A stretch of DNA of 63,733 bases from the IMG/VR virus record IMGVR_UViG_3300024048_000003, positions 1-63,733 of that record; one strand, written 5' to 3'. Numbering within the stretch: the first letter of the stretch is position 1; each line of letters begins with the position of its first letter. The position numbers were made by a program, and so were the translations under genes. Positions 34,243 to 59,426 of this stretch are shown here, in pieces. The notes below the pieces were generated by a model. The model was given only the letters and a program-made list of their open reading frames with translations. It did no database searches and was not told where the DNA came from. This stretch comes from a virus.

Positions 34243-34824
34243 ATGATTAAATATAATGTTGATTACTATTACAATCTTTTGAAGATTCATACGTGTACAG
34301 CAAAGGAAATTAATGACTTGCGGTGGAATTTTGTCGCAAAATATACAATGATTGATAAAATCGCTAGACAATATGCAACAGTTCTTGATTATGGGTGCGG
34401 TCCGGGCTGGTTTGCTGCATTTAAGCCTGACTACATTAGGCAGAATAACATTGATACTTTCGATATTATGCCTGTTCCGCAGACAGGGATAAGAAGGATT
34501 CAGTATAGCGTTGTAACGCTTTGGGATGTGCTGGAACATATTGCGGATTTTACTGATATTGAGAATGTGATTAATCGGACAAATTTTGTTGCGATGACTA
34601 TTCCGATTAAACCTGATAGCATAAGGTGGAATTCGTGGAAACACTTTAAGCCGGGCGAGCATCTCCATTATTATACAGTTGATTTACTAAAAGCATTGTT
34701 TAGATTGTATGGTTTTTCATTAAAAATTGATGAAATGATTGAATGTCCTCCAAGAAGCGATGTGCATTCATTGATTTTCGAGAAATCTGATTGGGTTACT
34801 ACAACGACGAGGAATAATGGATAA
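34243..34824 (+). CDS. Class I SAM methyltransferase (Methyltransf_23-like)
   Basis: 193 residues. AdoMet motif VLDYGCGPGWF near residue 50, VVTLWDVLEHIADF near 92, and HFKPGEHLHYYTVDLLKALF, typical of small-molecule/sugar methyltransferases rather than DNA enzymes. First enzyme of the glycan island. Substrate unknown; a sugar or lipid-linked glycan is inferred from neighbours. Confidence 0.78.
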   Translation: MIKYNVDYYYNLLKIHTCTAKEINDLRWNFVAKYTMIDKIARQYATVLDYGCGPGWFAAFKPDYIRQNNIDTFDIMPVPQTGIRRIQYSVVTLWDVLEHIADFTDIENVINRTNFVAMTIPIKPDSIRWNSWKHFKPGEHLHYYTVDLLKALFRLYGFSLKIDEMIECPPRSDVHSLIFEKSDWVTTTTRNNG

Positions 34825-36592
34825 AGAGAAAGTAGTCTTAGTAAACGATTTATCCCCGGGCGATATTTTAATAATGTCAGTGGCGATCCGGTCATTGTAT
34901 AAAGCTTACCCTAATAAGTATATGATTGACGTTCGTTCGCCATGCAATGAGATATTCAATAATAATCCTTATATTCAAAAAATACCGATAAGTAATAATG
35001 CTAAAGTCAATGAGGCTATCGAGAAATTAAAGAAAAATGACAACCTTCCTCCGATATTGGTGGAAGATACTAAATATATTATATCCCACTACCCTCTTAT
35101 CCATATTTCTGGCATGTCAGGGCTTCCTTTTGCTGATGGGCATCGAATGTTTTTGGCGCAGAAGCTAGGGATTGAAATACCGCGAACAGGTATGAAGCCA
35201 GATATTTTCTTTTCAAACGAGGAATTGGCACTACCTAGGCAGATAAAAGGCAAATATTGGCTGATAAATGCTGGAATCAAGAATGACTACACCTTAAAAT
35301 ACTATCCTTACTATCAAGAAGTGGTAAATCTGCTAAAAGATAAGATTCAAGTCGTTCAAGTTGGACATACAGCTCACAACCACCCACTATTGGACAATGT
35401 ATTGGATTTAAGGGGGAAAACTAACCTAAGGCAACTGTTTCTACTGTCTAAGTACGCAGAAGGGGCTATATGCCCAGTTTCGTTGCAAATGGTTATAATG
35501 GCATCGTTAAGTAAGCCTTGCGTAGTGGTTGCCGGCGCCAGAGAGGGGGTTAGGTGGCAATTAAATCCAGATCATCGCTTCCTATATACTAATGGCGCAA
35601 TTAAATGTGCAAAGTATGACGGCTGTTGGCGGTCAAAGATAGAAGAATGCACGTTCAAATCTTCTGAAGGTAATCCAATGTGCATGGAATTAATTCGCCC
35701 GGAGGACATCGCGCGAGCGGTAGAGTTGTATTACTTAGGTGGAGTGTTGAAGTATGAGAAAGAAAACCCGGTTATTCTTAACCAAAAAGAAGGAGTAAAT
35801 AAAATGGATAAAGTGACTCTTAACGCTATTGTTCCTGAGAATACTGGTGATAACACTGCAGTTCCAAATATATTAAACGCTGATAATAGCAATTTAAACA
35901 AAGATATTATAGATGTTAATAAAATAACCGTTTCTGAATCTTTTCCTGTCGGTATTAATTCTCCACAAGCAACATCTTCGATATTTAATATATTAAGGAT
36001 ATTAAAGAAGTTAAATGATAGCGATACATTTCTCGAGGCGTATCACTGGCATTTGAATAAGCGTAAAGATACATTTATGGATACGTATCATTTTATGCAG
36101 TGGGTTGGTGCTAATGTAAGACCTAAACGAATATTAGAGATAGGAACACGCACTGGTATATCAATTTGCCAATTATTATCAGCCTATACTAATTATGATA
36201 GTTTAGAAGAAATAATACTTTGTGATTTGTTTAATGATGGATTAGCAACGCCTCAAGGCGTTTTAAATGCTTTGAACTATTTGAATATTCCAACTGATAA
36301 AGTTAAATTCATTGTTGGCAGTTCATTAGATGAAATACCTAAATTTATTGGAAAGCAAACTTTCGATTATATTCTTGTTGATGGAAATCATGATAAAGAT
36401 TATGCAAGAAAAGATTTAATTAATGCAGTTCAATTAATAGAAAAAGGCGGTTACATTGTCTTTGATGATATAACACCTGACGGCTGTTCACTCCAAGATG
36501 TATGGGATGAGTTTAAAACAAATAACAATGCCTCTTTTAATTTCATGGAGAATCATGACGGTAAAGGATTAGGCGTAGCTAAAAAAATATGA
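34817..36592 (+). CDS. Fusion: GT9-like glycosyltransferase plus SAM methyltransferase
   Basis: 591 residues. Residues 1-310 resemble GT9/ADP-heptose transferases (VVLVNDLSPGDILIMSVAIRSL, IGTRT-independent middle, GAICPVSLQMVIMASLSKP). Residues 330-591 hold a class I methyltransferase (RILEIGTRTGISICQLL, FDYILVDGNHDKDYARKDL, GGYIVFDDI). A strong AGAAGGAG site lies just before an in-frame ATG at 35804 (M330), so the methyltransferase may also be made alone. Fusion of two once-separate genes is the simplest reading. Confidence 0.75.
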   Translation: MDKEKVVLVNDLSPGDILIMSVAIRSLYKAYPNKYMIDVRSPCNEIFNNNPYIQKIPISNNAKVNEAIEKLKKNDNLPPILVEDTKYIISHYPLIHISGMSGLPFADGHRMFLAQKLGIEIPRTGMKPDIFFSNEELALPRQIKGKYWLINAGIKNDYTLKYYPYYQEVVNLLKDKIQVVQVGHTAHNHPLLDNVLDLRGKTNLRQLFLLSKYAEGAICPVSLQMVIMASLSKPCVVVAGAREGVRWQLNPDHRFLYTNGAIKCAKYDGCWRSKIEECTFKSSEGNPMCMELIRPEDIARAVELYYLGGVLKYEKENPVILNQKEGVNKMDKVTLNAIVPENTGDNTAVPNILNADNSNLNKDIIDVNKITVSESFPVGINSPQATSSIFNILRILKKLNDSDTFLEAYHWHLNKRKDTFMDTYHFMQWVGANVRPKRILEIGTRTGISICQLLSAYTNYDSLEEIILCDLFNDGLATPQGVLNALNYLNIPTDKVKFIVGSSLDEIPKFIGKQTFDYILVDGNHDKDYARKDLINAVQLIEKGGYIVFDDITPDGCSLQDVWDEFKTNNNASFNFMENHDGKGLGVAKKI

Positions 36593-37626
36593 AAATATTA
36601 ATTACTGGCGGAGCAGGTCTTGTTGGAAGTCATTGTGCGGAACATTTTGCTAATAAAGGAGATTCTGTTGTTATCCTTGATAATTTAATGCGCTCTAAGT
36701 TATTTGGATATGATAAAGAGTCAGTTGAGTTTAATTGGAACTTTTTAGGTTCGTTTGATAATATTGAACGTATAAAAGGCGATGTTAGAAATGTTGAAGA
36801 TGTAAACAACTCTATGAGTAAAGGTGTTGATGCAGTTATACATACCGCTGGCCAGCCGGGAGTTCCTAGTTCTACAAGAATGCCGATAGAAGATTTTCAG
36901 ATAAACGCATTCGGCACTCTTAACGTTCTTGAGTGTTTGAGAAAAATAAATCCAAAAGCTACATTTTGTTATTGTTCTACCAATAAAGTTTATGGCGAGA
37001 ATGTAGACACGATACCATTAGAAGAAGGAAGGACACGATATAATTATTTAGGTACTAAAGGAGTTAAAGAAACTCTGCCTGTTGATTTAACAGGACATAC
37101 TCCGTATGGTGTCTCTAAATTAGTCGGAGATTTATATGCTCAGGAATATGCACATATTTATGGGATGCGAACTGGTGTATTTAGAATGTCTTGTATTTAT
37201 GGGATTAGACAGTTTGGCTTTGAGGATCAAGGTTGGGTTGCTTGGTTTATAATTGCTAATTTATTAAAGAAAGAAATAACTATTTTTGGCGATGGTAAGC
37301 AAGTTAGAGATCTTCTTTATGTTACTGATTTAGTAGATGCTTTTGATAAATTTATATATAGCGATGTTAAGTCAGATGTTTTCAACATAGGTGGAGGTTC
37401 TGAGAATACGGAGTCTTTAAAGGAATTCATAACACACTTAGAATCTCTGACGAATAGATCTACACAATTGAAATATGCTGATTGGCGGCCGTCTGATCAA
37501 AAGGTATATATTACAGATATATCTAAGGTTAAAAAAATTCTTAATTGGGAGCCTAAGATTCATACACTTACAGGTATAAAAAAAGTTATAAATTGGATTG
37601 ATAATAATAAGGAAATATTTATTTAA
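36589..37626 (+). CDS. NAD-dependent sugar epimerase, CDP-paratose 2-epimerase-like
   Basis: 345 residues. Rossmann motif TGGAGLVGSH at residues 6-15. CSTNKVYGEN and the HTPYGVSKLVGD segment give the S/T-YxxxK catalytic set. RMSCIYGIRQFGFEDQGWVAWFI with FGDGKQVRDLLYV matches the CDP-paratose/tyvelose epimerase branch of extended SDRs. It would interconvert a nucleotide-bound sugar. The start overlaps the preceding stop (ATGA). Confidence 0.83.
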   Translation: MKILITGGAGLVGSHCAEHFANKGDSVVILDNLMRSKLFGYDKESVEFNWNFLGSFDNIERIKGDVRNVEDVNNSMSKGVDAVIHTAGQPGVPSSTRMPIEDFQINAFGTLNVLECLRKINPKATFCYCSTNKVYGENVDTIPLEEGRTRYNYLGTKGVKETLPVDLTGHTPYGVSKLVGDLYAQEYAHIYGMRTGVFRMSCIYGIRQFGFEDQGWVAWFIIANLLKKEITIFGDGKQVRDLLYVTDLVDAFDKFIYSDVKSDVFNIGGGSENTESLKEFITHLESLTNRSTQLKYADWRPSDQKVYITDISKVKKILNWEPKIHTLTGIKKVINWIDNNKEIFI

Positions 37627-37627
37627 A

Positions 37628-38278
37628 ATGCAACATCCTAAAGACATTGAATACTTTAAAGAATACCCAGCACCGCTAATGGAATTATTTCATTCAGCAC
37701 ATTTTACTAATATAAATGCGACTGATTCTTTTTTTGGCTGTATGCTTTATTTTTTAATTAGAGCATTCAGATGTCAGAAAGTTTTAGAGATAGGATCCGC
37801 AGAAGGTTATTCAGCATGGTATATGGCTAATGGTGTCAGAGATAATGCTATAAGGCATAACTTTAAAGACGTTATGTATTATGGAATAGATATTGTTAAG
37901 ATAGGTGAAGTAGAAAAAATTTTAACTGACCATAATCTTCCGAATACTATGTTACCAATAGACACAATAACTTTGGGGAAAGAAGTGTTTGAAGATACTA
38001 AATTTGATTTAGTATTCCAAGACGGCTGTCATGAAGCAACTCATGTATTTCATGAGTTTAAAACTCTCTGGCCATTATTAAAAGGTAATGGTTTAGGCTA
38101 TTGGATTATGCACGACACGCGAGGTCCGGCTGAAGAAGGTTATAAAAGGATTTTAGAATATATAAAACAAGAAAATATAGATATTCAACATATTAATTTG
38201 GATGAAGGTATTTATGGATTAGGTATGTTTAGAAAAATGGAAGGCTTTGATTATTCTAAGAAACTTTGGAATGACTAA
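37628..38278 (+). CDS. Class I SAM methyltransferase-like protein
   Basis: Start set at 37628 (MQHPKDIEYFKEY); the frame opens at 37598 but that overlaps the epimerase. KVLEIGSAEGYSAWYMANG is the AdoMet motif, FDLVFQDGCHEATHVFHEFKTLWPLL the equivalent of VDGxH in Methyltransf_24-type enzymes, and GYWIMHDT follows. Probably sugar or cephalosporin-hydroxylase-like methyl transfer; substrate unknown. Confidence 0.75.
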   Translation: MQHPKDIEYFKEYPAPLMELFHSAHFTNINATDSFFGCMLYFLIRAFRCQKVLEIGSAEGYSAWYMANGVRDNAIRHNFKDVMYYGIDIVKIGEVEKILTDHNLPNTMLPIDTITLGKEVFEDTKFDLVFQDGCHEATHVFHEFKTLWPLLKGNGLGYWIMHDTRGPAEEGYKRILEYIKQENIDIQHINLDEGIYGLGMFRKMEGFDYSKKLWND

Positions 38279-38283
38279 TATTA

Positions 38284-38727
38284 ATGAGTAAAATGAAAAA
38301 TAAAATTATAGGTTACGCATACGTAGTGGGAGATATAATTCATACAGGTCATTTATTACATCTTGAAAACTGTTCAAAATTATGTGATGCGCTTTTTGTA
38401 GGAGTATTATCGGAGAAGGCAGTAATGGAAAAGAAGCCTAGCCCAATAATGTCTTTAGCAGAACGCATTTACATTATAAACAGTTTGAAGTTTGTAACTT
38501 GTGCTATATGTCAGGATGACTATAGTCCTTTGGGGAATTGTAAGGCAACCAAGCCAGATATCTTATTTGAGTCAACTTCGCATTCAGAATATCCAGCTAA
38601 TAACTTTATGAAATCGATTGGCGGTCGAGTTATTGTAATGCCTTACTTCAGTGAACAGAGTTCAACAAACATTAAGGAGAAGATAAATGCGGATAATAAT
38701 AATGGCAATAGTTCTAATAATGGTTAA
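38284..38727 (+). CDS. Cytidylyltransferase-like nucleotidyltransferase
   Basis: 147 residues. GYAYVVGDIIHTGHLLHLENC contains the HxGH nucleotide-binding motif, LAERIYIINSLKFV and SEQSSTNIKEKI correspond to later motifs of glycerol-3-phosphate/phosphocholine-type cytidylyltransferases. It would activate a phospho-alcohol or sugar as a CDP donor. This suits a LicD-type transferase two genes on. An asparagine/serine-rich tail ends the protein. Confidence 0.78.
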   Translation: MSKMKNKIIGYAYVVGDIIHTGHLLHLENCSKLCDALFVGVLSEKAVMEKKPSPIMSLAERIYIINSLKFVTCAICQDDYSPLGNCKATKPDILFESTSHSEYPANNFMKSIGGRVIVMPYFSEQSSTNIKEKINADNNNGNSSNNG

Positions 38728-38873
38728 TGGTTGCGCTGGGTTAGGTTTAAATAAAAAATGCACAGTAATACCAGACGAGATATGGATATCAGGAGATTTA
38801 GATCCAAATAATAATTACAACGCTGTTGAATATACCGGGGGGATAAAATGGAAATTAAAATAAAAGAAACTGA
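38697..38873 (+). CDS. 58-residue lipoprotein
   Basis: Translated by eye: begins MRIIIMAIVLIMVNGCAGL, a signal peptide with lipobox VNGC, and ends EYTGGIKWKLK. AAGGAGA ribosome site. It overlaps the cytidylyltransferase end and the start of the next gene. Small lipoproteins like this can be outer spanin subunits, but this gene lies away from lysis genes. Confidence 0.55.
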
Positions 38874-39252
38874 AACAAGGTCGGTAGTAAAAAGTGCAAT
38901 TTGGCGTGTTGTAGGAGTGCTCGTACTTGGAGCCGTAACTTATTTTTATACTAGACAATGGGTACAAACATCTTGGATAACTTTTTTACATCATGGAGTG
39001 TTCTTTTTTGTATTCTGGGCACATGAGAGATTTTATTTACATACTGATTTTGTTGGTTTAAAGAGAAAAATTTTAAAGATGATTACATATGAGAGCATAC
39101 TAGGTTTTCTAATCCTAGGTGTAATCACCTTAATAGTCACTGGGGATGTTCAGACTATGAATAAAATAACCATTACTTATATTCTAATCAAACATTTTCT
39201 TTATGTATTTAATGAGTTTATCTGGGATAAGATTAATTGGGGTAAAAAATGA
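38848..39252 (+). CDS. DUF2061-like membrane protein
   Basis: 134 residues. RSVVKSAIWRVVGVLVLGAVTYFYTRQWVQTSWITFLHHGVFFFVFWAHERFY fits DUF2061; a second, similar helical pair follows (ILKMITYESILGFLILGVITLIV). About four transmembrane helices, possibly a tandem duplication of the domain. In bacteria DUF2061 often accompanies sulfate/sugar-nucleotide genes. Role here unknown. Confidence 0.7.
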   Translation: MEIKIKETETRSVVKSAIWRVVGVLVLGAVTYFYTRQWVQTSWITFLHHGVFFFVFWAHERFYLHTDFVGLKRKILKMITYESILGFLILGVITLIVTGDVQTMNKITITYILIKHFLYVFNEFIWDKINWGKK

Positions 39253-39890
39253 AAAAATGGTCTTCGCACGACGCGTTGTATAAAGAAATGACCAGTAAGG
39301 AGAAATACGAAGGTCATCCTCAACGAATGAATTTTAAGAGGACTAATGAATATTTACAAGATTTAAGATTAGTCTTTGGAAAAGTAGGAATAAAATTCTT
39401 TTTATTCTGCGGAACATTAGTTGGGGCTATCCGCGATCATGATTTCCCTTGGCTAGACGATGATGCTGACGTTGGTGTTCTTTTCGAAGATGCAGATAAG
39501 TTTGTTGAAGCTGAGAAAATCTTTAAAGAAATGGGTTACTATACTTGTTTCGGTGAGACAATCGATGGTCGCAGAACATCTGGATACATTGCAAGAAAAG
39601 AGCATAGAGAGAAAATAGATTTTTATGTTCTTTTTTCTTTTGGCGGAGAACGTTGTTTTTACAGATTTGTTAAAGACGGATATGATTTGTATATACCATA
39701 TCCTCAAAAATACTTTGACAATTTGAAAGAAATAGAATTTAAAGGAGAGAAGTATTTTGTGCCTAATCCGCCAGAAGAATTTTTAACATACCTCTGGGGC
39801 AATTGGAAAGTTCCGAGAGGCGGTCAATGGGGTCTTATCAGCCATAAAAAGGTTTTAAAAGAAGAATTCAAACATGAGGGGGCACGATGA
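39249..39890 (+). CDS. LicD/fukutin-like phosphoryl-alcohol transferase
   Basis: 213 residues. FFLFCGTLVGAIRDHDFPWLDDDADVGVLF is the LicD nucleotidyltransferase-fold motif with its acidic triad in LDDDAD. YIARKEHREKIDFYVLF continues the fold. LicD enzymes move phosphocholine or similar groups from CDP donors to sugars. The cytidylyltransferase upstream could make the donor. Acceptor unknown. Confidence 0.8.
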   Translation: MKKWSSHDALYKEMTSKEKYEGHPQRMNFKRTNEYLQDLRLVFGKVGIKFFLFCGTLVGAIRDHDFPWLDDDADVGVLFEDADKFVEAEKIFKEMGYYTCFGETIDGRRTSGYIARKEHREKIDFYVLFSFGGERCFYRFVKDGYDLYIPYPQKYFDNLKEIEFKGEKYFVPNPPEEFLTYLWGNWKVPRGGQWGLISHKKVLKEEFKHEGAR

Positions 39891-40762
39891 AATACGCATT
39901 TACACTTTCTTGCACTGGTGGATATTTGTTCGGTATGATAAGTGCCATGAACGCTATGGCTCATTTTGGGGTAAGAGCTGATTGGGAAGTTGCTTATGCC
40001 AATATACCTTCAGAAATGAGAAATAAAATATCTTGCTCTTTTCCATTTAAAGTTAATTGGACGTTTATACCAGAATTGATCGAGGGAACAAATAAGATAG
40101 CTGATAGGCATTGGATCGCAACTTGGTTGATGACAAAGAAAGTTATTAATAATTATGACGCTATATGCCACACTCAAGCAGACCATATGCCTTTAAGCAA
40201 TATGACAGCTCTTTTCAAAGCGGCTGCTGATGGCTGTCTTGTTTTAACAGAACATTTCAATTATTCTAACACTATAGAAGATTTATACGCAAGAAATTCT
40301 CCTGTTGTTGATAGAGGGCAGTGTTCGTTGACAGACCAATTCATTTTTGCAAATCCAACACATAAGAATATCTTTTCCACTGTTGCTGAGACAATGGATC
40401 AGAAGTTAGAGGGAGATAGAAACCATCCGGTTATAATTCTCAACAATGTTGTAAAGGCAGCTGTTCCTTTTGAAGAAGTGATTACTCTTGAGCGTCATAT
40501 ATGGGCGTTCCAAAAGAATCTTAATAATATACCTTTACGTAGAAGCGGAAATAATATCTTAACGAATAATGACGTTAGGCTTCGAGGGATCCACAACCGT
40601 TGGTGGCAGAAAGGAAGGGCTAATAGTGAGCTAAGGAATAATCCTGGAAAAGACATGTCAATCACAATAGCTAACTGGAATTTAATTCGTGACTATATGG
40701 CTGAGTTCAATGCAATGCGTCCAGAAATAGCAGTGGAGGATTATGAAAGAACTGTTTGGTAA
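39887..40762 (+). CDS. Putative GT-A-type glycosyltransferase
   Basis: 291 residues. MKYAFTLSCTGGYLFGMISAMNAM is an N-terminal strand-helix, VINNYDAICHTQADHMPLSN a DxD-like metal site (QADHM), and SLTDQFIFANPTHKNIF a typical mid-domain. I infer a glycosyltransferase by fold pattern and neighbours; the donor is unknown. It overlaps the previous stop by 4 bp. Confidence 0.6.
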   Translation: MKYAFTLSCTGGYLFGMISAMNAMAHFGVRADWEVAYANIPSEMRNKISCSFPFKVNWTFIPELIEGTNKIADRHWIATWLMTKKVINNYDAICHTQADHMPLSNMTALFKAAADGCLVLTEHFNYSNTIEDLYARNSPVVDRGQCSLTDQFIFANPTHKNIFSTVAETMDQKLEGDRNHPVIILNNVVKAAVPFEEVITLERHIWAFQKNLNNIPLRRSGNNILTNNDVRLRGIHNRWWQKGRANSELRNNPGKDMSITIANWNLIRDYMAEFNAMRPEIAVEDYERTVW

Positions 40763-40907
40763 AATAGAAACTCCTAGGTGGGAGGTTGTTGAGACTTTAA
40801 TTAATAAATATGATCTTAGGAAAATAGCTGAGATAGGTATTTTCCATGCAGACATGGCATGCAAGGTGTTGCATGGTGCTAGGGTTACAACAATTAAACA
40901 ATTTTAA
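40743..40907 (+). pseudogene. Truncated paralogue of the following methyltransferase
   Basis: 54 codons: begins MKELFGKIETPRWEVVETL, then INKYDLRKIAEIGIFHADMACKVL, and stops. It aligns with RWDLLTLLIRQYNLKQIAEVGVYRGDTAKRIL of the next gene at about 14 of 32 identical positions, including the AdoMet motif start, but lacks the rest. Likely a remnant of a duplicated methyltransferase. Confidence 0.65.
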
Positions 40908-40908
40908 T

Positions 40909-41514
40909 ATGTGGGAAATAAAAAGAAATCTAAAATTTGAGAAACTAACTGAAGGCTATAAATTATTCCCAATTCAGAATTTAATGCGTTGGGATTTGCT
41001 GACGTTATTGATACGACAATATAATTTAAAGCAAATAGCTGAAGTAGGAGTTTATCGAGGCGATACTGCAAAAAGAATATTGAGAGAACATCATTCTTTC
41101 TTTGATAAAGGAAACATGGGTAGCCCTTTACAATTTAAGCATTACTACATGATAGATCATTCACCTTCGAAACAATGCTTAGAACTTGCAAAAGAATATT
41201 CTGATATAAGCACTTTTCTTTGTGCTAAATCAATAAATGCCGTTAAAGATTTTCAAGATAATTCCCTGGACCTTGTTTTTGTTGATGCTTGTCATTGGTA
41301 TAAAGATGCAAAAGAAGATATGGTGGCATGGCTTTCTAAAGTAAAAAAAGGTGGTTGGTTTGTTGGACATGATTTTTATTTAGATGGTGTTGATAAGTGG
41401 CATGAGGATGTTAGGAAAGCCGCTGACGAAGTATTAGGTTATCGTGATTATTATATTTTCCCTGACGTTGAGCCATGTGGTAGAGGTTGCATGTTTATGA
41501 AACGCATAATGTAA
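40909..41514 (+). CDS. Class I SAM methyltransferase (Methyltransf_24-like)
   Basis: Start set at 40909 (MWEIKRNLKFEKL), two bases past the fragment stop; an upstream ATG at 40846 is inside the fragment. 201 residues. IAEVGVYRGDTAKRIL is the AdoMet motif, LDLVFVDACHWYKDAKEDMVAWL the second, GGWFVGHDFY the third. Probably methylates a sugar of the glycan made here. Confidence 0.77.
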   Translation: MWEIKRNLKFEKLTEGYKLFPIQNLMRWDLLTLLIRQYNLKQIAEVGVYRGDTAKRILREHHSFFDKGNMGSPLQFKHYYMIDHSPSKQCLELAKEYSDISTFLCAKSINAVKDFQDNSLDLVFVDACHWYKDAKEDMVAWLSKVKKGGWFVGHDFYLDGVDKWHEDVRKAADEVLGYRDYYIFPDVEPCGRGCMFMKRIM

Positions 41515-41527
41515 AAGGAGATAACAA

Positions 41528-42565
41528 ATGGAAGAAGTAAATACAAACCCTGGAAAAGTTTTCTCAGTAGAATGTAACGAGCCTAGAAGTAAGTATGCGT
41601 ATGTAGTTTGTGCAGATATACGATACCTTCCAGAAGTTGTTGCCGAATTGAATTCTTTAGATTATGTTGGCAATACTCAAGACGTTCATTTCTATGGTTC
41701 TAAAATTCCAATGATAGTTAAAGACCAATTCAAATTACTTAATTATAGAATTATTTTTCATGACATTAGTGAGGAAGAAATAAAAGAATCTCATGGTCTT
41801 AGTGAAGTTGTTTGTCGTAAGCGATATTGGTTTGCAAATAAGATAGGTAAACTTTATGATGCAATATGTGTTTTAGATGCTGATATGATATTCTGCCGAA
41901 ACCCAATACATTACTTTACAATGGCAGCAAAGACTGGATTGGTATTATGTGCCGGTAAAGAGCAGAATAAAGTTTACGATGATCCGCACCATCAATTCAA
42001 AGGAGAATGGTTAATGCCGAAGGGTTATTATAATCCTGTTGATTTATGTAATTGTCCGCTGTTCGTTGATATGAAGATATGGGGTGAATGCTTAGCTAAA
42101 AGTTTTTCTATATTTATGGACGGTTTTGATGAAATGAAAGGCACTAATTTCAAAGCTCCAGATATGGACGCAATGAATTTATGTTTGTTAGAAGCTGGCT
42201 CAGCAGATAAGACAGTTGTCTTGGCAGGGATTCAATGGTTATCGACCAACGAGCAATTACTCAAGCCATATATTCGTGCCGTTAAAGATAGAGGATTAAT
42301 AAAGACTGAGTGTGGAATCCCAATTTACTCTTATCATGGCCAATATTACCATAAAAAGTGGCGTAATTGCCAGATAGAGAATCGGCATGGCTGTGCTGCT
42401 AGATACTTAAAAGCTAATAAACATAAAGAAACTCAGGAACATATGGATAGTCAAGCTCAAGGTTCGATGAATTTACTTTATGAGAATTTCAAGAAAATGT
42501 TGAATTTTAGGATAAAGATACCTATAATAAACTATAGGCATCCCGAAAAGCCTTATGAGGAGTAA
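41528..42565 (+). CDS. GT-A-type glycosyltransferase (GT8-like)
   Basis: 345 residues. YAYVVCADIRYLPEVVAELNSL, then LYDAICVLDADMIFCRNP with the metal-binding DAD, and a later PIYSYHGQYYHKKWRNC with the histidine typical of the domain end. Cytoplasmic transferase adding a sugar from a nucleotide donor; linkage unknown. AAAAGGAGATAAC ribosome site. Confidence 0.72.
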   Translation: MEEVNTNPGKVFSVECNEPRSKYAYVVCADIRYLPEVVAELNSLDYVGNTQDVHFYGSKIPMIVKDQFKLLNYRIIFHDISEEEIKESHGLSEVVCRKRYWFANKIGKLYDAICVLDADMIFCRNPIHYFTMAAKTGLVLCAGKEQNKVYDDPHHQFKGEWLMPKGYYNPVDLCNCPLFVDMKIWGECLAKSFSIFMDGFDEMKGTNFKAPDMDAMNLCLLEAGSADKTVVLAGIQWLSTNEQLLKPYIRAVKDRGLIKTECGIPIYSYHGQYYHKKWRNCQIENRHGCAARYLKANKHKETQEHMDSQAQGSMNLLYENFKKMLNFRIKIPIINYRHPEKPYEE

Positions 42566-42567
42566 TA

Positions 42568-42615
42568 ATGCTGAGACTTAAAAGAATATGGGCAAGTGAA
42601 AAAAGATTAGTTAAA
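42568..42615 (+). pseudogene. 5' remnant of a GT9-like gene
   Basis: The first 16 codons (MLRLKRIWASEKRLVK) match the start of the gene at 43082 (MLRIKQIWKGNKKLVD) in protein and partly in DNA. The reading frame then enters antisense HNH sequence and is not plausibly coding. Suggests a second copy interrupted or replaced by the HNH gene. Confidence 0.6.
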
Positions 42616-43041
42616 TCTACCAAGTTTATTTCTTTTTCTATTTTTCCAATGAGTTTGACCAACGTTATGATTATGACCATGAATTTTTTGCGTAGTCAAT
42701 TCAAGATTTATAATTCTATTATCATTAAGAATACCATTGATATGATGAATTATTTCTTCAGGTTTAAGATATCTACCAAGTTTCTTTTCCATTACCAATC
42801 GATGTTCCATTACATAACCATGGCTGTCTCTAAATGGATGATCTTTAGAAAGGATTTGTACATACCCATTTCTTTTTCTTCGTCCTCCTTTCCATCTATA
42901 ATGATTTTTACCATTAGGAACATTTTTAATAAACAATTTAATAGAGCATTTTCTAGAACAAACAAAATCTTTTTTATTTTTGATTTGACAAGGGAATCTT
43001 TCAATTCTTTTACCACAAATAGAACATTTTTTAATAACCAT
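42607..43041 (-). CDS. Free-standing HNH homing-type endonuclease
   Basis: About 144 residues from ATG 43041 (MVIKKCSICGKRIERFP); the frame opens to 43113. A zinc finger (CSICGK, CSRKC) precedes WKGGRRKRNGYVQI, GYVMEHRLVMEKKLGRYLKPEEIIHHINGILNDNRIINLEL (HNH core with EEIIHHING) and a basic tail. It lies antisense in the rightward glycan operon. Likely a mobile gene. A hairpin covers its ribosome site. Confidence 0.85.
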   Translation of the reverse strand: MVIKKCSICGKRIERFPCQIKNKKDFVCSRKCSIKLFIKNVPNGKNHYRWKGGRRKRNGYVQILSKDHPFRDSHGYVMEHRLVMEKKLGRYLKPEEIIHHINGILNDNRIINLELTTQKIHGHNHNVGQTHWKNRKRNKLGRFN

Positions 43042-43042
43042 A

Positions 43043-43063
43043 GTCCTATTGTAGCAATAGGAC
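43043..43063. promoter_or_regulatory. Hairpin masking the HNH ribosome site
   Basis: GTCCTATTG-TAG-CAATAGGAC, a perfect 9-bp stem, ends 1 nt from the HNH start codon on the minus strand. The AGGA just upstream of the ATG lies in the stem, so translation would be blocked unless RNA begins inside it. Confidence 0.6.
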
Positions 43064-43081
43064 AGCGAGGAGTCAAGTAAT

Positions 43082-43924
43082 ATGTTGAGGATAAAACAAA
43101 TCTGGAAAGGCAATAAAAAATTAGTAGATTACATTAAAGAACATAATCCAAAAAAGATCGGATTATGTTTTGGGCACGGATTAGGCGATACAGTTATGTT
43201 CATGTCTCCTTTCGAATCTTTATGTCAAAAATATCCAGAAATTAAGTTTACTTTAATAATGCAGAAAGGTTTAGGCTTTGAAGAAATAGAGAAAGATATA
43301 CTTAGTAATAATATTGATGTTGTGTTTACTAATGACTTGTCATACAACGAAGTGGTACTTGGATATGACATTATTGCAGATATTGATTTTCCAATGAGTG
43401 AGGGGCAGATAAAATTGACTAAGGGTGAATATTGTTGTGTTCATGAATTAGGTATTGATCCTGTGAATGGTCATAAAAAGATAACTTGCGGAAAAAATAG
43501 ACTAATAGGAATACATTATTTTATAACTTGCTTACCTGATGCGTGCAATCCAGACGAAGAAACTGCTAAACGAATATGGGATGATGTTTTAGGTGCTGGT
43601 TTTATTCCGATAGAAATGCATTTCCAACATGTCTTTCACAATCCTGTAAATAAGAAGTTTGATTTTGTTGATAGCAATGTAAGAAAAGTAAAGCCTCAAG
43701 TAAGCACACTAGTAGGATTGATCGAACAGTGTGCTGGAGTTATTTGTGTAGTTAGCGGTAATCTTCATACAGCGATTTCTGTGCTTCCTCCGGAAAGGAT
43801 ATTCTTTTTAGAAAAACATTTTAAATTAGAATCATTCACAAAATTAGAAATTGCTAGGGCATCAATTATGCCTAATGAATATAAGAACGAAGTCAGAGAT
43901 TGGCTTGTAAGTTTAGATAAATAA
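43082..43924 (+). CDS. GT9-like (heptosyltransferase-type) glycosyltransferase
   Basis: 280 residues. KIGLCFGHGLGDTVMFMSPFESLCQKYPEIKFTLIM is the GT9 N-terminal pattern; VSTLVGLIEQCAGVICVVSGNLHTAISV near 215-240 is the nucleotide-sugar site. Last gene of the glycan island, followed by an intrinsic terminator. Related to the N-half of the 34817 fusion. Confidence 0.75.
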   Translation: MLRIKQIWKGNKKLVDYIKEHNPKKIGLCFGHGLGDTVMFMSPFESLCQKYPEIKFTLIMQKGLGFEEIEKDILSNNIDVVFTNDLSYNEVVLGYDIIADIDFPMSEGQIKLTKGEYCCVHELGIDPVNGHKKITCGKNRLIGIHYFITCLPDACNPDEETAKRIWDDVLGAGFIPIEMHFQHVFHNPVNKKFDFVDSNVRKVKPQVSTLVGLIEQCAGVICVVSGNLHTAISVLPPERIFFLEKHFKLESFTKLEIARASIMPNEYKNEVRDWLVSLDK

Positions 43925-46803: not shown

Positions 46804-49725
46804 ATGGCAATAATATACGACCAGAGTAGTAATGCTTATGATGACAGCAACCTAAGCTATGACGGAACGTTAGGAAGTTCTAGTTCATCTAGTTCTTCTA
46901 GTTCCTCAAGCAGTTCTAGTAGTTCATTAAGCTCAAGCAGTTCTAGTTCCTCAAGTAGCTCTTTAAGTTCTATCAGTTCAAGTTCATCAAGTTCCTCTAG
47001 CAGTTCATTCAGCTCAAGCAGTTCTAGTTCATCAAGTAGCTCAAGCAGTTCATTAAGTTCAAGTAGCTCTAGTTCTTCTAGTTCCTCAAGCAGTTCATAT
47101 AGCTCAAGTAGTTCCAGTTCATCAAGTAGCTCATTCAGCTCAAGTAGCTCTAGTTCTTCAAGTAGCTCAAGTAGTTCTTTCAGCTCAAGTAGTTCAAGCT
47201 CATCAAGTAGCTCAAGTAGTTCATTAAGTTCTAGTAGCTCTAGTTCTTCTAGTTCCTCAAGTAGCTCATTTAGCTCAAGTAGCTCAAGCAGTTCATCAAG
47301 TTCTTCTTTTAGCTCTAGCTCATCAAGTTCATCAAGTAGCTCAAGTAGTTCTTTCAGCTCAAGTAGCTCAAGTAGTTCTTCAAGTAGTTCCTTTAGTTCA
47401 AGTTCTTCTAGTTCTTCTAGTAGCTCTAGCAGTTCATTCAGCTCAAGTAGTTCAAGCTCATCAAGTAGCTCAAGCAGTTCATTAAGTTCAAGTAGCTCTA
47501 GTAGCTCATCAAGCAGTTCATTCAGTTCAAGTAGCTCTAGCTCATCAAGCAGTTCTAGTAGCTCAAGCAGCTCAAGTAGTTCCTTTAGCTCAAGTAGCTC
47601 TAGCTCATCAAGTAGTTCTAGTTCATCAAGCTCATCAAGCAGTTCATTCAGTTCAAGTTCTTCAAGTAGCTCATTCAGCTCAAGCAGTTCTTCCAGTTCA
47701 TCAAGTAGTTCTTTCAGTTCTTCTAGTTCATCAAGTAGCTCAAGTAGTTCTTTAAGTTCTAGCAGTTCAAGCTCATCAAGTTCCTCAAGTAGTTCCTTTA
47801 GCTCTAGTAGCTCAAGCTCATCAAGCTCATCAAGTAGTTCTTTCAGCTCAAGCAGTTCTAGTTCATCTAGCAGTTCTAGTAGCTCAAGTAGTTCATATAG
47901 CTCAAGCTCATCAAGTAGCTCAAGCAGTTCTAGCAGTTCTAGCTCATCAAGCAGTTCTTTTAGTTCCTCAAGTAGCTCAAGCAGTTCATCAAGCAGTTCA
48001 TTCAGTTCAAGTAGCTCAAGCAGTTCATCTAGCAGTTCTTTTAGTTCAAGTTCTTCTAGTTCCTCAAGTAGCTCAAGCAGTTCATCAAGCAGTTCAAGTA
48101 GTTCTTTCAGCTCAAGCAGTTCTAGTTCATCTAGCAGTTCTAGTAGCTCAAGTAGTTCATCTAGCAGTTCTAGTAGCTCAAGTAGTTCTAGTTCATCAAG
48201 TAGCTCAAGTAGCTCATATAGTTCTAGTAGTTCAAGTAGCTCAAGTAGCTCATTTAGTTCAAGTAGCTCAAGTAGTTCTAGTTCATCAAGTAGCTCATTT
48301 AGTTCAAGCAGTTCAAGCAGTTCTAGTTCTTCTAGTAGCTCATTCAGTTCAAGCAGTTCTAGTTCTTCTAGTAGCTCAAGTAGTTCTTTAAGTTCTAGCA
48401 GTTCAAGCTCATCGAGTAGTTCATTTAGCTCAAGTTCTTCCAGTTCATCAAGTAGTTCTAGTAGTTCAAATAGTTCTTTTAGTTCCTCAAGTAGCTCAAG
48501 TAGTTCCTTTAGCTCAAGTAGTTCTAGCTCATCAAGCAGTTCAAGCTCGTCTAGTTCATCAAGCAGTTCTTTCAGCTCAAGTAGTTCCAGTTCATCAAGT
48601 TCCTCTAGCAGTTCTTTCAGCTCTAGTAGCTCAAGCTCATCAAGTTCCTCTAGCAGTTCTTTCAGCTCAAGTAGTTCCAGTTCATCAAGTAGCTCTAGCA
48701 GTTCTTTCAGCTCAAGTAGTTCCAGTTCATCAAGTAGCTCAAGCAGTTCTTTTAGCTCAAGTAGTTCCAGTTCATCAAGTAGCTCAAGTAGTTCTTTCAG
48801 CTCGAGCAGTTCATCAAGTAGCTCAAGTAGTTCTTTCAGCTCAAGTAGCTCAAGTAGTTCATCAAGTAGTTCATTTAGTTCAAGTAGCTCAAGTAGTTCA
48901 TCAAGTAGTTCATTTAGTTCAAGTAGCTCAAGTAGTAGCTCTAGTAGCTCAAGCTCATCAAGTTCCTCTAGCAGTTCTTTCAGCTCAAGTAGTTCCAGTT
49001 CATCAAGTAGCTCTAGCAGTTCTTTCAGTTCAAGTAGTTCCAGTTCATCAAGTAGCTCTAGCAGTTCATTCAGCTCAAGTAGTTCTAGTTCATCAAGTAG
49101 CTCAAGCAGTTCTTTCAGCTCTAGTTCATCAAGCTCATCAAGCTCATCAAGTAGTTCTTTCAGCTCAAGTTCTTCTTCTTCGAGTTCATCAAGTAGCTCA
49201 AGCTCATCAAGCTCGTCTAGTAGTTCCTTTAGTTCAAGTTCATCAAGTAGCTCTAGTAGCTCAAGCTCATCAAGCTCATCAAGTAGTTCCAGTTCATCTA
49301 GTAGTTCTTTCAGTTCAAGTAGCTCAAGTAGTTCCAGTTCATCTAGCAGTTCATTCAGTTCAAGTAGCTCAAGCTCATCAAGTAGCTCTAGCTCATCTAG
49401 CAGTTCAAGCAGTTCAAGTAGTTCTAGTTCATCAAGCAGTTCATTCAGTTCAAGTAGCTCTAGCTCATCAAGTAGCTCTAGCTCATCTAGCAGTTCAAGC
49501 AGTTCAAGCTCATCAAGTAGTTCAAGTTCTTTTAGTTCTTCAAGTAGTTCAAGCAGTTCAAGTTCATTATCAAGCTCAAGTTCTTCTAGTTCATCAAGCT
49601 CGGCTTCATCATTACCATATCAAGTTGATTTTGTTAATAAAACATATGATTATGAATTTAAAGATGATACAAGCAATTATAAATTTGATAATAAAACATA
49701 TAATTATAAATTTGATGAACAATAA
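46804..49725 (+). CDS. Giant poly-serine protein (973 aa)
   Basis: Opens MAIIYDQSSNAYDDSNLSYDGT, then some 900 residues of serine broken about every 12-21 residues by one F, L or Y. It closes with a tyrosine/asparagine/phenylalanine repeat (KTYDYEFKDDTSNYKFDN). The commonest spacing is 15 residues (45 bp), as in the array from 48571 to 48796. Serine codons alternate AGT, AGC, TCA and TCT, so no frame-shifted or homopolymeric readout explains it. It sits between fibre genes and packaging genes, probably a virion surface brush. Function is inference. Confidence 0.75.
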   Translation: MAIIYDQSSNAYDDSNLSYDGTLGSSSSSSSSSSSSSSSSSLSSSSSSSSSSSLSSISSSSSSSSSSSFSSSSSSSSSSSSSSLSSSSSSSSSSSSSSYSSSSSSSSSSSFSSSSSSSSSSSSSSFSSSSSSSSSSSSSSLSSSSSSSSSSSSSSFSSSSSSSSSSSSFSSSSSSSSSSSSSSFSSSSSSSSSSSSFSSSSSSSSSSSSSSFSSSSSSSSSSSSSSLSSSSSSSSSSSSFSSSSSSSSSSSSSSSSSSSSFSSSSSSSSSSSSSSSSSSSSFSSSSSSSSFSSSSSSSSSSSSFSSSSSSSSSSSSLSSSSSSSSSSSSSSFSSSSSSSSSSSSSSFSSSSSSSSSSSSSSSSSYSSSSSSSSSSSSSSSSSSSSFSSSSSSSSSSSSSFSSSSSSSSSSSSFSSSSSSSSSSSSSSSSSSSSSFSSSSSSSSSSSSSSSSSSSSSSSSSSSSSSSSSSSSYSSSSSSSSSSSFSSSSSSSSSSSSSSFSSSSSSSSSSSSSSFSSSSSSSSSSSSSSLSSSSSSSSSSSFSSSSSSSSSSSSSSNSSFSSSSSSSSSFSSSSSSSSSSSSSSSSSSSSFSSSSSSSSSSSSSSFSSSSSSSSSSSSSSFSSSSSSSSSSSSSSFSSSSSSSSSSSSSSFSSSSSSSSSSSSSSFSSSSSSSSSSSSFSSSSSSSSSSSSFSSSSSSSSSSSSFSSSSSSSSSSSSSSSSSSSSSFSSSSSSSSSSSSSSFSSSSSSSSSSSSSSFSSSSSSSSSSSSSSFSSSSSSSSSSSSSSFSSSSSSSSSSSSSSSSSSSSSSFSSSSSSSSSSSSSSSSSSSSSSSSSSFSSSSSSSSSSSSSSFSSSSSSSSSSSSSSSSSSSSSSSSSSSSSFSSSSSSSSSSSSSSSSSSSSSSSSSSSSFSSSSSSSSSSSLSSSSSSSSSSSASSLPYQVDFVNKTYDYEFKDDTSNYKFDNKTYNYKFDEQ
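46883..49606 (+). repeat. Imperfect minisatellite encoding serine brush
   Basis: Roughly 2.7 kb of tandem units, each a run of AGY/TCN serine codons closed by TTC, TTT, TTA or TAT. Units of 45 bp dominate at 48571-48796; 36, 39 and 63 bp also occur. Such arrays expand and contract by slippage, so copy number here may vary or be mis-assembled. Confidence 0.9.
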
Positions 49726-52210: not shown

Positions 52211-53625
52211 AAAGAAAGAAAGATCAACCAGAACAAGATTCAAGTAATGTTATATTGAATTTTAAAGAACGTAAAAAAAGGTCAATAGAGTTACAGAGAA
52301 GAATAGCTGAATCATACCCAATGGTAGGGGGTACTGGTGAAGATGCTCAATGGCGTTCTTTGACATCTAATTCACTCAGGGATTTGAGCCTCCTTACACA
52401 GAATAGAATGCAGGATATTGCGTTCTATTTATATGATAGCAATCCTATGGCAGGCAGGATTATCGAGATTATAGAAGATTTTGTTATTGGTGACGGATTT
52501 ACTTATTCAGTCAAAGATCCTAATGTAAAAGAAGTTATCGATAATTTTTGGAACGATCCGGATAATAACCTTGATGAAGAAATGAATGTTAATGTTGTTG
52601 AACTATATTTGTTTGGTGAGTTATGTTTACCGACTTGGGTTAATTCAGCTAACGGTGCAGTTAAGCTAGGGTATATAGATCCAAAGACAATTTTAAAAAT
52701 TAGAAAAGATAGAAATAATCCAAAGATACAAAAATCATTAATATGGAAAAGATTAAGTGGTTCTTCTAAAGAACAAGAAATGAGTATAATAAATGTTGAT
52801 AGAAATCTTAGGTCAAAAACATATGGGAAGTTAGTTGGAGATTGTTTTTACTTTACAATAAATAAAGTAAGTTCAGCAACGCGCGGTAGAAGTGTGTTAT
52901 TAAGATTAGCTGATTGGCTAGATGGATATGATCAATTTCTTTTTACAAGGTTAGAAAGAGCATTCTTGTTGAATTCGTTTATTTGGGATGTTGCTTGTGA
53001 AGGAATGAATGAATCAGAGCTTCAAGAATTTGTAAAAAAATTAGCGCCGCCTAGACCTGGCTCTATAAGAGCTCATAATGAAAAAATCACCTGGAAGTCA
53101 GAAACACCTAAATTAGAATCAGCTGATGCATCAGGTGAAGCAGCCTTATTTAAGAACCAGATTTTAGGTGGTGCTGGATTCCCGGGGCATTGGTTTGCTG
53201 AAGGTGATAAAACTACACGTGCAACAGCTATGGAAATGTCGCTTCCTACTCTTAAAAATTTAAAGACTAAACAGAAAAAAATAAAGTTTCTAATTAAGCG
53301 GATGTTTGATTTTGTCATTGACCAAGCAATAATAGCTGGTGTATTAAAAGAGGGTGTTGATAAGACTTTTAAAGTTATTCCTTCTCCAATAGTTTCTAGA
53401 GATAGCAGCAAAGGAACTGCTGAAGCTATGTCAGGATTAATATCTGGATTGGTTCAAGCATCTGATAAAAAATGGGTTAGTGATAAGAAGGCTAAAACTA
53501 TTATTAATGCAGTAATATCACAATTAGGTGTAGATGTAGATAGTGAGGCTGATGATAATGTAGATAGTGATGCTGATGATAATAAGAAAGAAGAAGAAAA
53601 AGGAGTAGCGACAAATGAAGAATAA
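52207..53625 (+). CDS. Portal protein
   Basis: 472 residues. QDIAFYLYDSNPMAGRIIEIIEDFVIGDGFTY and the later LADWLDGYDQFLFTRLERAFLLNSFIWDV, LKNLKTKQKKIKFLIKRMFDFVIDQAI are portal-like. It forms the ring through which DNA enters the capsid. The acidic, lysine-rich C-terminal tail (VDSEADDNVDSDADDNKKEEE) is repetitive. Adjoins TerL as usual. Confidence 0.83.
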   Translation: MKRKKDQPEQDSSNVILNFKERKKRSIELQRRIAESYPMVGGTGEDAQWRSLTSNSLRDLSLLTQNRMQDIAFYLYDSNPMAGRIIEIIEDFVIGDGFTYSVKDPNVKEVIDNFWNDPDNNLDEEMNVNVVELYLFGELCLPTWVNSANGAVKLGYIDPKTILKIRKDRNNPKIQKSLIWKRLSGSSKEQEMSIINVDRNLRSKTYGKLVGDCFYFTINKVSSATRGRSVLLRLADWLDGYDQFLFTRLERAFLLNSFIWDVACEGMNESELQEFVKKLAPPRPGSIRAHNEKITWKSETPKLESADASGEAALFKNQILGGAGFPGHWFAEGDKTTRATAMEMSLPTLKNLKTKQKKIKFLIKRMFDFVIDQAIIAGVLKEGVDKTFKVIPSPIVSRDSSKGTAEAMSGLISGLVQASDKKWVSDKKAKTIINAVISQLGVDVDSEADDNVDSDADDNKKEEEKGVATNEE

Positions 53626-55441
53626 AGGGTTTTTGATTGCTTTGTTAGAAGATTTCTCTTTAGATAAAATAGACATCGTTTCTAAAAACGATAACTTTAT
53701 GGAAGGTGTAAAGCCTGCGTTTGGTTCTCCCGGTGGTAAATTTTTTGTTGCCGGGAAACTAATAAGATTGTTTCCAGAACATAAAAGATACGTTGAATCA
53801 TTTATTGGTGGTGGATCTATATTGTTCAGAAAAAAGAGAAGTGAAGAAGAATTTATAAACGATAGAGATAGTGATATTGCTTCTTGTTTTAAGTTTATGA
53901 AAGACATAACAGAACAACAAGTTGAATCATTAAATAAGCTTGATTGGAAAACATCTAAAGATACATTTAATAAATTGCTTCCTGAGTGGAAAGAAAGTAG
54001 TCAGCATAACGACCCTGTTTATCAGTTCTATCGTTATGTTTATATCAAAGGAGCTTCAGATGCAGGTCAGATGAGTTCCTTTGATAATAGATCTGAAGGT
54101 GATGTTATGAAAGTAACTACACGAATGCTAAAGATAAAAGAACGTCTGCAAGACGTAACAATAGAAAATATGGATTACAGAGATTTTATTAAAAAATATG
54201 CGAACAAAGAATCTTTTACTTTTATGGATCCTCCTTATCCGTCAGCTAAGATGGATTGGAAGTGGTGTCCGACACAAAATGAATTTGAATCATTTACAAA
54301 AACTGTTCCGGGTAAGTGGATGGTTACGTATGAAGTTTGTGACGGTTGGAAAGAATCAAAGTATGATAGAAAGATACTTTCTCAATATAATATTGCTGCA
54401 CCATCAGCAGGTCATATGGCTAGGAAATCAGAATTAATGGTTTCTAATTATCCAATAAAAGAGAACTCAACTTATTTAGAATCTGAAATAGATGATGATA
54501 TAAAGGAATCAATAGTTGACTTTGTTGATAACCTAAGGTTATCGGAAGTACGTGGATTAGGATTAGGCGTTGGTGGTCCTAGACAAGGTGATGCTGGAAC
54601 AGATGTTTGTGTTTGCCCTAAGTGTAAAGAAGAAATTAAACATAACAGAGGAACTCCTTGTAATGAAAGTAAATGTCCTAAGTGCGGAACACCAATGATA
54701 GGAAAAGTTGATAACAAAGAATCTTTAGTTGATGATTTAAAAGATATACTAAAGTTATATGCGGCTAAAAGAAGAGGTGATGATGTTGATAAAACATTCG
54801 AGCAGTTAAAGAGTTCATTTCGTGGTTGTGTATCTGACATCATAGAATCTGGTATTACTGATTTCCATCCAGAAAAGCTTTCTCCGTTTGCTTTAGAGTT
54901 GTTTGATAAATACACAGAGTATAAATATACTGTTGTGCAACCTGATAAATCTGAACAATCATTTAAAACATTAAAAGAATTAAAAGACAGCAATGTTGAT
55001 TATCGCGGATATAAGTTTAATATAAAAATGAAAGAAGCAGAAAAGAAGATAGGTAACTTTACTTTTTATAATCAATGGTGGAGAAACAAAAATGATAAGA
55101 TAGATAATTTTACTGTTTCTACTGATTTAGGAATAGATATTCATTTGTCTGAAAATAAAAGTTTGATCGAAGATGAATTCAAAGAATCAACTTTTTATAT
55201 AAAACCTTCAGAATACTCTGTTAGGAAACTTTCAGAGGGAATATCATTTATGTTACCTCATAGTGATTTTAATATTACTGATATGCTTTCTTGGATTAAA
55301 GTAATAGATAGAGGAAATATATCTATTCTTGAAAGCACAGAGTTAGAGAAAATAATAGAGTTTTCTGGTAAAAAAATTAAAGGTATTTTTACAGCTAAGA
55401 GAGAAAATGAGAACTCAGACTTTTGGGTTTTGAAAAAATAA
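53615..55441 (+). CDS. Dam-type DNA methylase fused to zinc ribbon and C-terminal domain
   Basis: 608 residues. Residues 25-275 are a D12-class adenine methylase: FGSPGGKFFVAGKLIRLFP, YVESFIGGGSILF and FTFMDPPYP (DPPY catalytic motif). Around 305-365 lies GLGVGGPRQGDAGTDVCVCPKCKEEI with CPKCGTPM, a zinc ribbon. A 230-residue unrecognised domain ends IIEFSGKKIKGIFTAKRE. It sits between portal and capsid, where DNA methylases are rare; overlaps the portal gene by 11 bp. May mark DNA as it is packaged. Confidence 0.82.
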   Translation: MKNKGFLIALLEDFSLDKIDIVSKNDNFMEGVKPAFGSPGGKFFVAGKLIRLFPEHKRYVESFIGGGSILFRKKRSEEEFINDRDSDIASCFKFMKDITEQQVESLNKLDWKTSKDTFNKLLPEWKESSQHNDPVYQFYRYVYIKGASDAGQMSSFDNRSEGDVMKVTTRMLKIKERLQDVTIENMDYRDFIKKYANKESFTFMDPPYPSAKMDWKWCPTQNEFESFTKTVPGKWMVTYEVCDGWKESKYDRKILSQYNIAAPSAGHMARKSELMVSNYPIKENSTYLESEIDDDIKESIVDFVDNLRLSEVRGLGLGVGGPRQGDAGTDVCVCPKCKEEIKHNRGTPCNESKCPKCGTPMIGKVDNKESLVDDLKDILKLYAAKRRGDDVDKTFEQLKSSFRGCVSDIIESGITDFHPEKLSPFALELFDKYTEYKYTVVQPDKSEQSFKTLKELKDSNVDYRGYKFNIKMKEAEKKIGNFTFYNQWWRNKNDKIDNFTVSTDLGIDIHLSENKSLIEDEFKESTFYIKPSEYSVRKLSEGISFMLPHSDFNITDMLSWIKVIDRGNISILESTELEKIIEFSGKKIKGIFTAKRENENSDFWVLKK

Positions 55442-58871: not shown

Positions 58872-59426
58872 ATGCCAAAACCTACCAGATATAAATATAG
58901 TGTCGCTAACCGTAGGGGTACAACCCTAAGTAAATCCGCAGATTACTCTCTGACAGAGAATGATGTTGAAAGAAGTGGATCTTTATTTGTTAAATTAACT
59001 TCAGGAAATACACTAACTTTACCTGCCGCTAGTGATAGTTTAAAAGGCGCTAGTGTTTATGTTAATACATCTGATCAAGGCATTGTATATGTTGCTGCCG
59101 GATTTGGTGGTGGGGGAGCTAGTTATGATACTGCTAATATAGGAAAGTATGAATCTGCTGAGTTTTGGTGTGACGGCAGTTATTGGTACGCATTAAATGT
59201 AACTGTAGCTGGAAATACTTCTAGTTCATCATCCAGTTCATCATCTTTTTCCAGTAGCTCATCAAGTTCATCAAGTAGCTCAAGTAGCTCATTAAGTTCA
59301 TCAAGTAGTTCATTAAGCTCGAGTAGCTCAAGCTCAAGTAGCTCAAGTAGCTCAAGCTCAAGCTCAAGCTCATCAAACTCAAGTAGTTCTAGCTCATCTA
59401 GTTCGAGCTCAAGCGAATCTAGTTAA
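58872..59426 (+). CDS. Head decoration-like protein with poly-serine tail
   Basis: 184 residues. Residues 1-117 repeat the preceding paralogue (RYKYSVANRRGTTLSKSADYS, GFGGGGASYDTANIG, EFWCDGSYWYALN). After VAGNT comes a 65-residue serine tail with rare F, L, N and E. The domain ends where the paralogue stops, so the tail is an added module. AAAGGAGGACAAT ribosome site. Confidence 0.7.
   Translation: MPKPTRYKYSVANRRGTTLSKSADYSLTENDVERSGSLFVKLTSGNTLTLPAASDSLKGASVYVNTSDQGIVYVAAGFGGGGASYDTANIGKYESAEFWCDGSYWYALNVTVAGNTSSSSSSSSSFSSSSSSSSSSSSSSLSSSSSSLSSSSSSSSSSSSSSSSSSSSNSSSSSSSSSSSSESS

Follow-up and report, generated by a model that had tools for sequence, protein, structure and literature searches.

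Organization of the island

The window analysed here, the whole stretch of 63,733 bases, is a whole virus record of a tailed phage, with genes for a lambda-J-like tail protein, terminase, portal and capsid, and several near-identical records of 63.8 kb were found. Positions 34243–43924 are occupied by an island of enzymes on the plus strand, the direction of the virion genes (late strand). Its positions in an earlier reading of the sequence, hereafter the original prediction, were borne out gene by gene. Besides four glycosyltransferases and as many methyltransferases, the island encodes an epimerase similar to CDP-tyvelose 2-epimerase, a LicD protein and a nucleotidyltransferase; on its 3′ side lie three more genes, then a 973-aa poly-serine protein, then the terminase genes. 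The gene content of the window shows no link between the island and lysogeny genes.

The leftmost gene, 34243–34824 (+), encodes a Methyltransf_23 methyltransferase (MTa; PF13489, E 3.2e-11) that is present in some relatives. It is followed by a fusion, 34817–36592 (+), whose N-terminal half (aa 1–312) is a TibC-like GT9 glycosyltransferase with a four-cysteine finger and whose C-terminal half is a Methyltransf_24 domain (PF13578, E 1.4e-15); in many relatives the two halves are separate, adjoining genes. The original prediction had missed this fusion and its GT9 half, which is the key enzyme. The several methyltransferases that it did announce are MTa, the C-terminal half of the fusion and two further Methyltransf_24 proteins, namely MTb at 37598–38278 (+), found in nearly all islands (PF13578, E 2e-12), and MTc at 40846–41514 (+) (PF13578, E 5.9e-17).

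Up to four glycosyltransferases had been proposed, and there are four: two GT9-like and two GT8-like. Besides the GT9 half of the fusion, the former include GTe, 43082–43924 (+), which is distantly homologous to the GT9 half (hhalign against its family, E 4e-7). The latter are GTd, 41528–42565 (+), a GT-A enzyme with a DxD motif (model pLDDT 85.3) whose nearest Foldseek neighbours are LARGE1, LgtC and pneumococcal GlyE, and its homologue GTc, 39887–40762 (+) (hhalign E 4e-9). An open reading frame on the plus strand at 42568–43080 was rejected as a gene, the space being occupied by an HNH_3 endonuclease gene on the minus strand (42607–43113), between GTd and GTe. Relatives of this endonuclease stand at the same place in three other records (G009, G018 and G022). 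A near copy (MLRLKRIW, at 42568) of the plus-strand GTe start, MLRIKQIW, stands just before the HNH gene, as would follow from an insertion of this gene into the beginning of GTe.

The remaining genes are accessory. The SDR epimerase at 36589–37626 (+) is of the CDP-tyvelose/paratose 2-epimerase type, its closest PDB entry being a CDP-tyvelose 2-epimerase (9rl0, E 5.7e-75), which agrees with the CDP-sugar-type epimerase first proposed. The protein at 38284–38727 (+), described originally as a cytidylyltransferase, does belong to that superfamily (PF01467, CTP_transf_like, E 6.7e-7; HxGH motif), but its nearest NCBIfam family is rfaE_dom_II (TIGR02199), the heptose-1-phosphate adenylyltransferase domain, which it matches with 71 bits, far under the cut-off of 181. 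A DUF2061 membrane protein at 38848–39252 (+) (PF09834, E 3.5e-10) precedes the predicted LicD-family phosphotransferase at 39249–39890 (+), which is supported by PF04991 (E 1.3e-11; 45.4 bits against a gathering score of 22.6) over the N-terminal motif region only, aa 46–92.

Across islands the conserved core consists of GT9, Methyltransf_24, MTb, GTd and GTe. The epimerase, nucleotidyltransferase, DUF2061 and LicD genes vary among relatives, most islands having neither membrane protein nor LicD nor nucleotidyltransferase, and the latter trio recurs as a cassette in G019. Accordingly, the epimerase, cytidylyltransferase and LicD genes stressed in the original prediction are present, but as variable accessories and not as the core. 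The self-encoded pathway of that prediction also needs amending: a complete donor pathway is not encoded, and the phage therefore probably draws on host nucleotide sugars. The nucleotidyltransferase could supply LicD with a CDP-linked group.

The proteins encoded at 34817 and 41528 have no relatives among 50,697 GenBank phage records, and consequently no named host can be given. One scan of genome contigs yielded a single weak relative, on contig L122 (6.7 kb) from a Flavobacteriales MAG, which is too little to name a host. This contig holds GT9, GTe, GTd and methyltransferases together, without poly-serine, and may be a binned phage fragment. Elsewhere in the window, three similar proteins (starting at 6539, 7092 and 8225) lie in tandem at 6539–8776 after the J-like protein; they share an N-terminal pattern, are kept in G001 and are possibly duplicated tail-tip or receptor proteins. 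Between the portal and capsid genes, the N-terminal half of the protein at 53615–55441 is a D12-class DNA adenine methylase domain; relatives retain the protein, or its C-terminal part alone (G010).

Serine-tract proteins

The five serine-tract proteins of the original prediction are real. By far the longest is the 973-aa protein at 46804–49725 (+), which is 88% serine, with a tract spanning aa 25–933, and which we propose as the main acceptor; its equivalent occupies the same place in relatives. In the other four, also encoded in the structural module, the tract is C-terminal: a DUF2460 tail protein at 1510–2451 (+) (PF09343, E 4.9e-21; tract aa 198–312), a protein of the structural module at 58872–59426 (+) (aa 117–181), a 97-aa protein at 59484–59777 (+) (aa 59–97) and a protein of a minor-tail PHROG at 61055–62074 (+) (phrog_290, E 2.8e-14; aa 314–336). 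Related phages retain the tracts on the same proteins.

Serine is encoded by two codon classes, TCN and AGY, which no single base change can interconvert. The protein at 46804–49725 has 848 serines within runs, and the class switches at 537 of its 792 neighbouring serine pairs. This mixture of codons indicates that the protein sequence is being kept, and that the tracts are not a slipped DNA repeat.

Single residues interrupt the serine runs, F in the window and L, I, K, R, E or Y in relatives. The gaps between them are divisible by three in 399 of 845 cases, which exceeds chance (9, 12 and 15 are common, and the gaps are not independent owing to tandem duplication) and may reflect a three-residue helix. 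In almost every near-identical record (L003/L214 comparison) the large protein is 973 aa long; in IMGVR_UViG_3300035698_008150 it has 867 aa, through either length variation or assembly collapse. Its conserved non-serine tail (49600–49725 in the window) contains repeats like TYDYKFKD, and this type of tail is common to G001, G003, G005, G009 and G016.

The GT9 half resembles TibC

By itself, the GT9 half of the window protein matches PF01075, the profile of glycosyltransferase family 9, with an E-value of only 0.033, while 13 of 18 family members match this profile, the best with 2e-14. An AlphaFold model computed from 18 diverse relatives reached a pLDDT of 90.8 and a pTM of 0.91 and displays a GT-B fold like that of WaaC and WaaF. 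In a Foldseek comparison with the PDB, the highest TM-scores were those of TibC (0.64–0.68, rmsd about 5); 3tov gave 0.65 with a larger rmsd, WaaF and WaaC gave 0.53–0.62, and the best E-value belonged to WaaF (1psw, 1.6e-11). TibC was not found when the GT9 half was searched against the PDB by sequence, and came from fold comparison alone.

TibC O-heptosylates serines, not threonines, of autotransporters; it requires a four-cysteine iron finger and uses Asp-110, Lys-230, Arg-286 and Trp-305 (PMC4358343). In the phage family, K161 and W247 and, following them in the C-lobe, C264, C270, C278 and C289 are invariant in 18 of 18 members; the first loop carries an Asp in all members covering that region. 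Judging from order and region, these residues would be positionally equivalent to those of TibC. The phage enzyme shares with TibC/Aah (BAHT; PDB 4RAP, 4RB4) a GT9-like GT-B fold, an Asp in the first loop followed in order by Lys and Trp, a four-cysteine finger after the donor site and a gene that adjoins that of a serine-rich putative acceptor, this being the direct neighbour in groups G020–G037 and lying 10 kb downstream in the window. It differs in several respects. The 312-aa domain model has no N-terminal β-barrel; the cysteine spacing is x5-x7-x10 as compared with x2-x15-x11; the putative acceptors are near-pure serine tracts of phage proteins and not β-helical autotransporters; and the enzyme is fused to, or stands beside, methyltransferases. 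The Aah/TibC equivalog TIGR04414 also misses it: only 2 of 18 members were matched, with a best E-value of 0.003, and the window member was not among them. We propose that the GT9 half is the initiating serine O-glycosyltransferase. That the sugar it moves is heptose would be a guess from the modelled fold alone, and we consider it rather doubtful.

Co-occurrence of GT9 and poly-serine genes

Scans with the glycosyltransferase families, with copies of one phage counted once, gave a first set of 25 distinct GT9 records, most of which lack a terminase match to the window phage and whose GC content ranges from 29 to 67%. To count strictly as poly-serine, an ORF needed a start codon, 8 or more consecutive serines and at least 20 serines in 30 residues; a looser threshold (17 of 30, any frame) was dropped, having produced 7 spurious matches in random DNA. 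Strict poly-serine ORFs were present in 21 of the 25 records, and within 4 kb of GT9 in 13. The four others are a contig that stops at the glycosyltransferase genes (G025), a fragment of 6.7 kb, a record of which only 20 kb was read and one with Ser-Pro repeats instead. Among 38 control viral stretches picked by an arbitrary 15-mer, neither a strict poly-serine ORF nor GT9 occurred. The differences correspond to p-values of 5e-13 (21/25 versus 0/38) and, within 4 kb, 5e-7 (13/25 versus 0/38), the latter comparison allowing for the greater average length of the GT9 records, and both overstating the number of separate events because the records are partly related by descent. When records with at least two other proteins in common are grouped, the carriers form about ten groups, most of them still connected by single shared proteins. 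In unrelated phages the poly-serine gene directly adjoins island enzymes, at 220–770 bp, and in G020, G022 and G023 the whole island is flanked on both sides by poly-serine genes.

The prediction that new carriers should have serine tracts was tested on a second set of 46 deduplicated GT9 loci, mostly 31–40% identical. Strict poly-serine was found in 17 of 46 (p 1e-5), in most cases 0–600 bp from GT9. Some neighbours are serine-rich in another form, such as SSGSSGSSG beside GT9 in L381, and for about half of these divergent loci no serine-rich neighbour was seen. Within the close family, enzyme and tract are thus almost always paired, and in the wider family the pairing is partial.

For the reverse direction, the viral collection was scanned by codon pattern, and 70 of 80 loci among the matches listed had real poly-serine. 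GT9 was present in 8 of the 66 poly-serine records tested, two of these being the window phage itself; it was found in 6 of the other 64 and in none of the remaining 58. As compared with random records, this association is not significant (6/64 versus 0/38, p 0.08), and it looks strong only when set against how rare the gene is, at least 146 hits being confirmed in 2.9 million contigs, a lower bound from a scan with one short peptide pattern. Many viral records (loci L170–L248) carry long poly-serine proteins without this GT9. Nor was there clear enrichment of other glycan genes in poly-serine records lacking GT9, be it Methyltransf_24 (2/24 versus 2/26) or GT2 (6/24 versus 2/26). Three viruses with a related epimerase and no GT9 all lack poly-serine, too few to weigh. 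Presence of the enzyme goes together with presence of the tract, but tracts can do without this GT9, so that the co-occurrence proposed as a check of the original prediction holds in one direction and rarely in the other. Related phages keeping one half without the other had been named there as contrary evidence. Such separation is widespread at large, most poly-serine viral records being without GT9; it is not seen in the clade of the window phage itself, all of whose records that cover the region carry both. G001, which has tracts and no island, was dismissed as a counter-example, its contig ending at both island edges.

Discussion

The recurrence of enzyme and tract in unrelated phages, often as adjoining genes, and the modelled fold of the key enzyme, which is like that of a serine O-glycosyltransferase, sustain the link between island and poly-serine proteins, and do so more strongly than the original prediction could tell. 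We consider it likely that the island enzymes O-glycosylate the phage's own poly-serine proteins and form a module for virion-protein glycosylation. In such a scheme the TibC-like GT9 half would begin by glycosylating serines in the tracts of the phage's structural proteins, with a nucleotide sugar, probably of host origin, as donor; GTe and the GT8-like GTd and GTc would lengthen the glycan, and the methyltransferases would O-methylate it. The accessory cassette (2-epimerase, nucleotidyltransferase, DUF2061 and LicD) may provide a special sugar or phospho-substituent, and we tentatively suggest, without leaning towards it, that LicD puts a phospho-group on the poly-serine glycans. Coated with glycans, the serine tracts would thereby form mucin-like tails on the particle. 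This reading draws on the highest PDB TM-scores of the GT9 model being those of a serine O-heptosyltransferase, on the four invariant cysteines, Lys and Trp following the TibC order, on co-occurrence and adjacency in the first set and the outcome of the prediction in the second, and on the resemblance of GTd to GlyE and LgtC together with the position of the island in the late virion-gene strand. Against it stand the weak TIGR04414 matches, the many poly-serine phages without GT9 and the lack of a serine-rich neighbour at about half of the most divergent GT9 loci.

A further point against it, the fold that GT9 shares with the LPS heptosyltransferases, one of which gave the best E-value, leads to the alternative that the targets are LPS, O-antigen or lipid glycans on the surface of the infected cell, for example in superinfection exclusion, the serine tracts being unrelated. 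Glycosyltransferase islands in phages often modify host surface glycans, and LicD and the DUF2061 protein would fit a membrane or polysaccharide target; most islands, however, lack these two proteins and the nucleotidyltransferase, the island sits in the late strand by the terminase with no link to lysogeny genes, and the enzyme tracks and adjoins poly-serine genes across unrelated phages, all of which makes host surface modification unlikely. A role in modifying DNA bases is very improbable. Phage glycosyltransferases often do act on DNA (cited in PMC12619734), but the scanned early-region proteins, an ordinary N6/N4 methylase, primase, helicase and ParB, include none of the base-modifying enzymes that such glycosyltransferases need, and the fold neighbours of the island enzymes act on LPS, proteins or polysaccharide.

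Alternatively, the tracts may be plain flexible linkers or spacers, unglycosylated, and associated with the enzymes through a shared ecology, such as that of hosts rich in both poly-serine and glycosyltransferase islands. The poly-serine viral records devoid of GT9 (58/64), and the lack of excess Methyltransf_24 among them, would be expected under this explanation. Shared ecology nevertheless leaves unexplained both why enzyme and tract genes stand side by side in several genome contexts that are unrelated and why the fold matches a serine glycosyltransferase, and we regard unglycosylated linkers as quite unlikely.

Glycosylation of the poly-serine proteins by the island would have precedents. 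Virion glycosylation by phage glycosyltransferases in mycobacteriophages Che8 and Rita is cited in PMC11256854 and PMC12619734, and the window system, with phage-encoded glycosyltransferases and serine-rich tails on virion proteins, would accordingly be a variant of a known phenomenon. According to the same sources, the mycobacteriophage glycans are on capsid or tail-tube C-termini, whereas the putative acceptors here are long poly-serine tracts on several proteins. The gene clusters of serine-rich repeat adhesins likewise have a serine-rich putative acceptor beside several glycosyltransferases, and GTd resembles their GlyE in fold; in contrast to the GtfA/GtfB of those clusters, the putative initiating enzyme of the phage is GT9-like, and neither a GtfA/GtfB pair nor accessory Sec genes occur among the island proteins. 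Two proteins of uncultured Caudovirales, A0A6J5SVC1 and A0A6J7WHE7, named 'Glycosyltransferase Aah/TibC' and 'RfaF' from annotation only, have the same fold and are phage-encoded. A literature search found no link of either to poly-serine, and one on poly-serine phages found nothing relevant. While phage virion glycosylation is already known, the pairing of GT9 and poly-serine as enzyme and acceptor looks new.

More generally, it is an evenly balanced question in our judgement whether these islands reflect a widespread, previously undescribed phage strategy, in which a TibC-like GT9, often fused to or neighbouring a methyltransferase, O-glycosylates near-homopolymeric serine tracts of several virion proteins to give a mucin-like, methyl- or phospho-capped coat; the variable accessory enzymes would then cause the outer sugar to vary among phages. 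If true, this would explain why the particle proteins of many environmental phages bear tracts of hardly anything but serine, and why glycosyltransferase and methyltransferase islands lie inside the late regions of these phages, and it would predict mucin-like virions, with effects on adsorption, shielding and particle stability.
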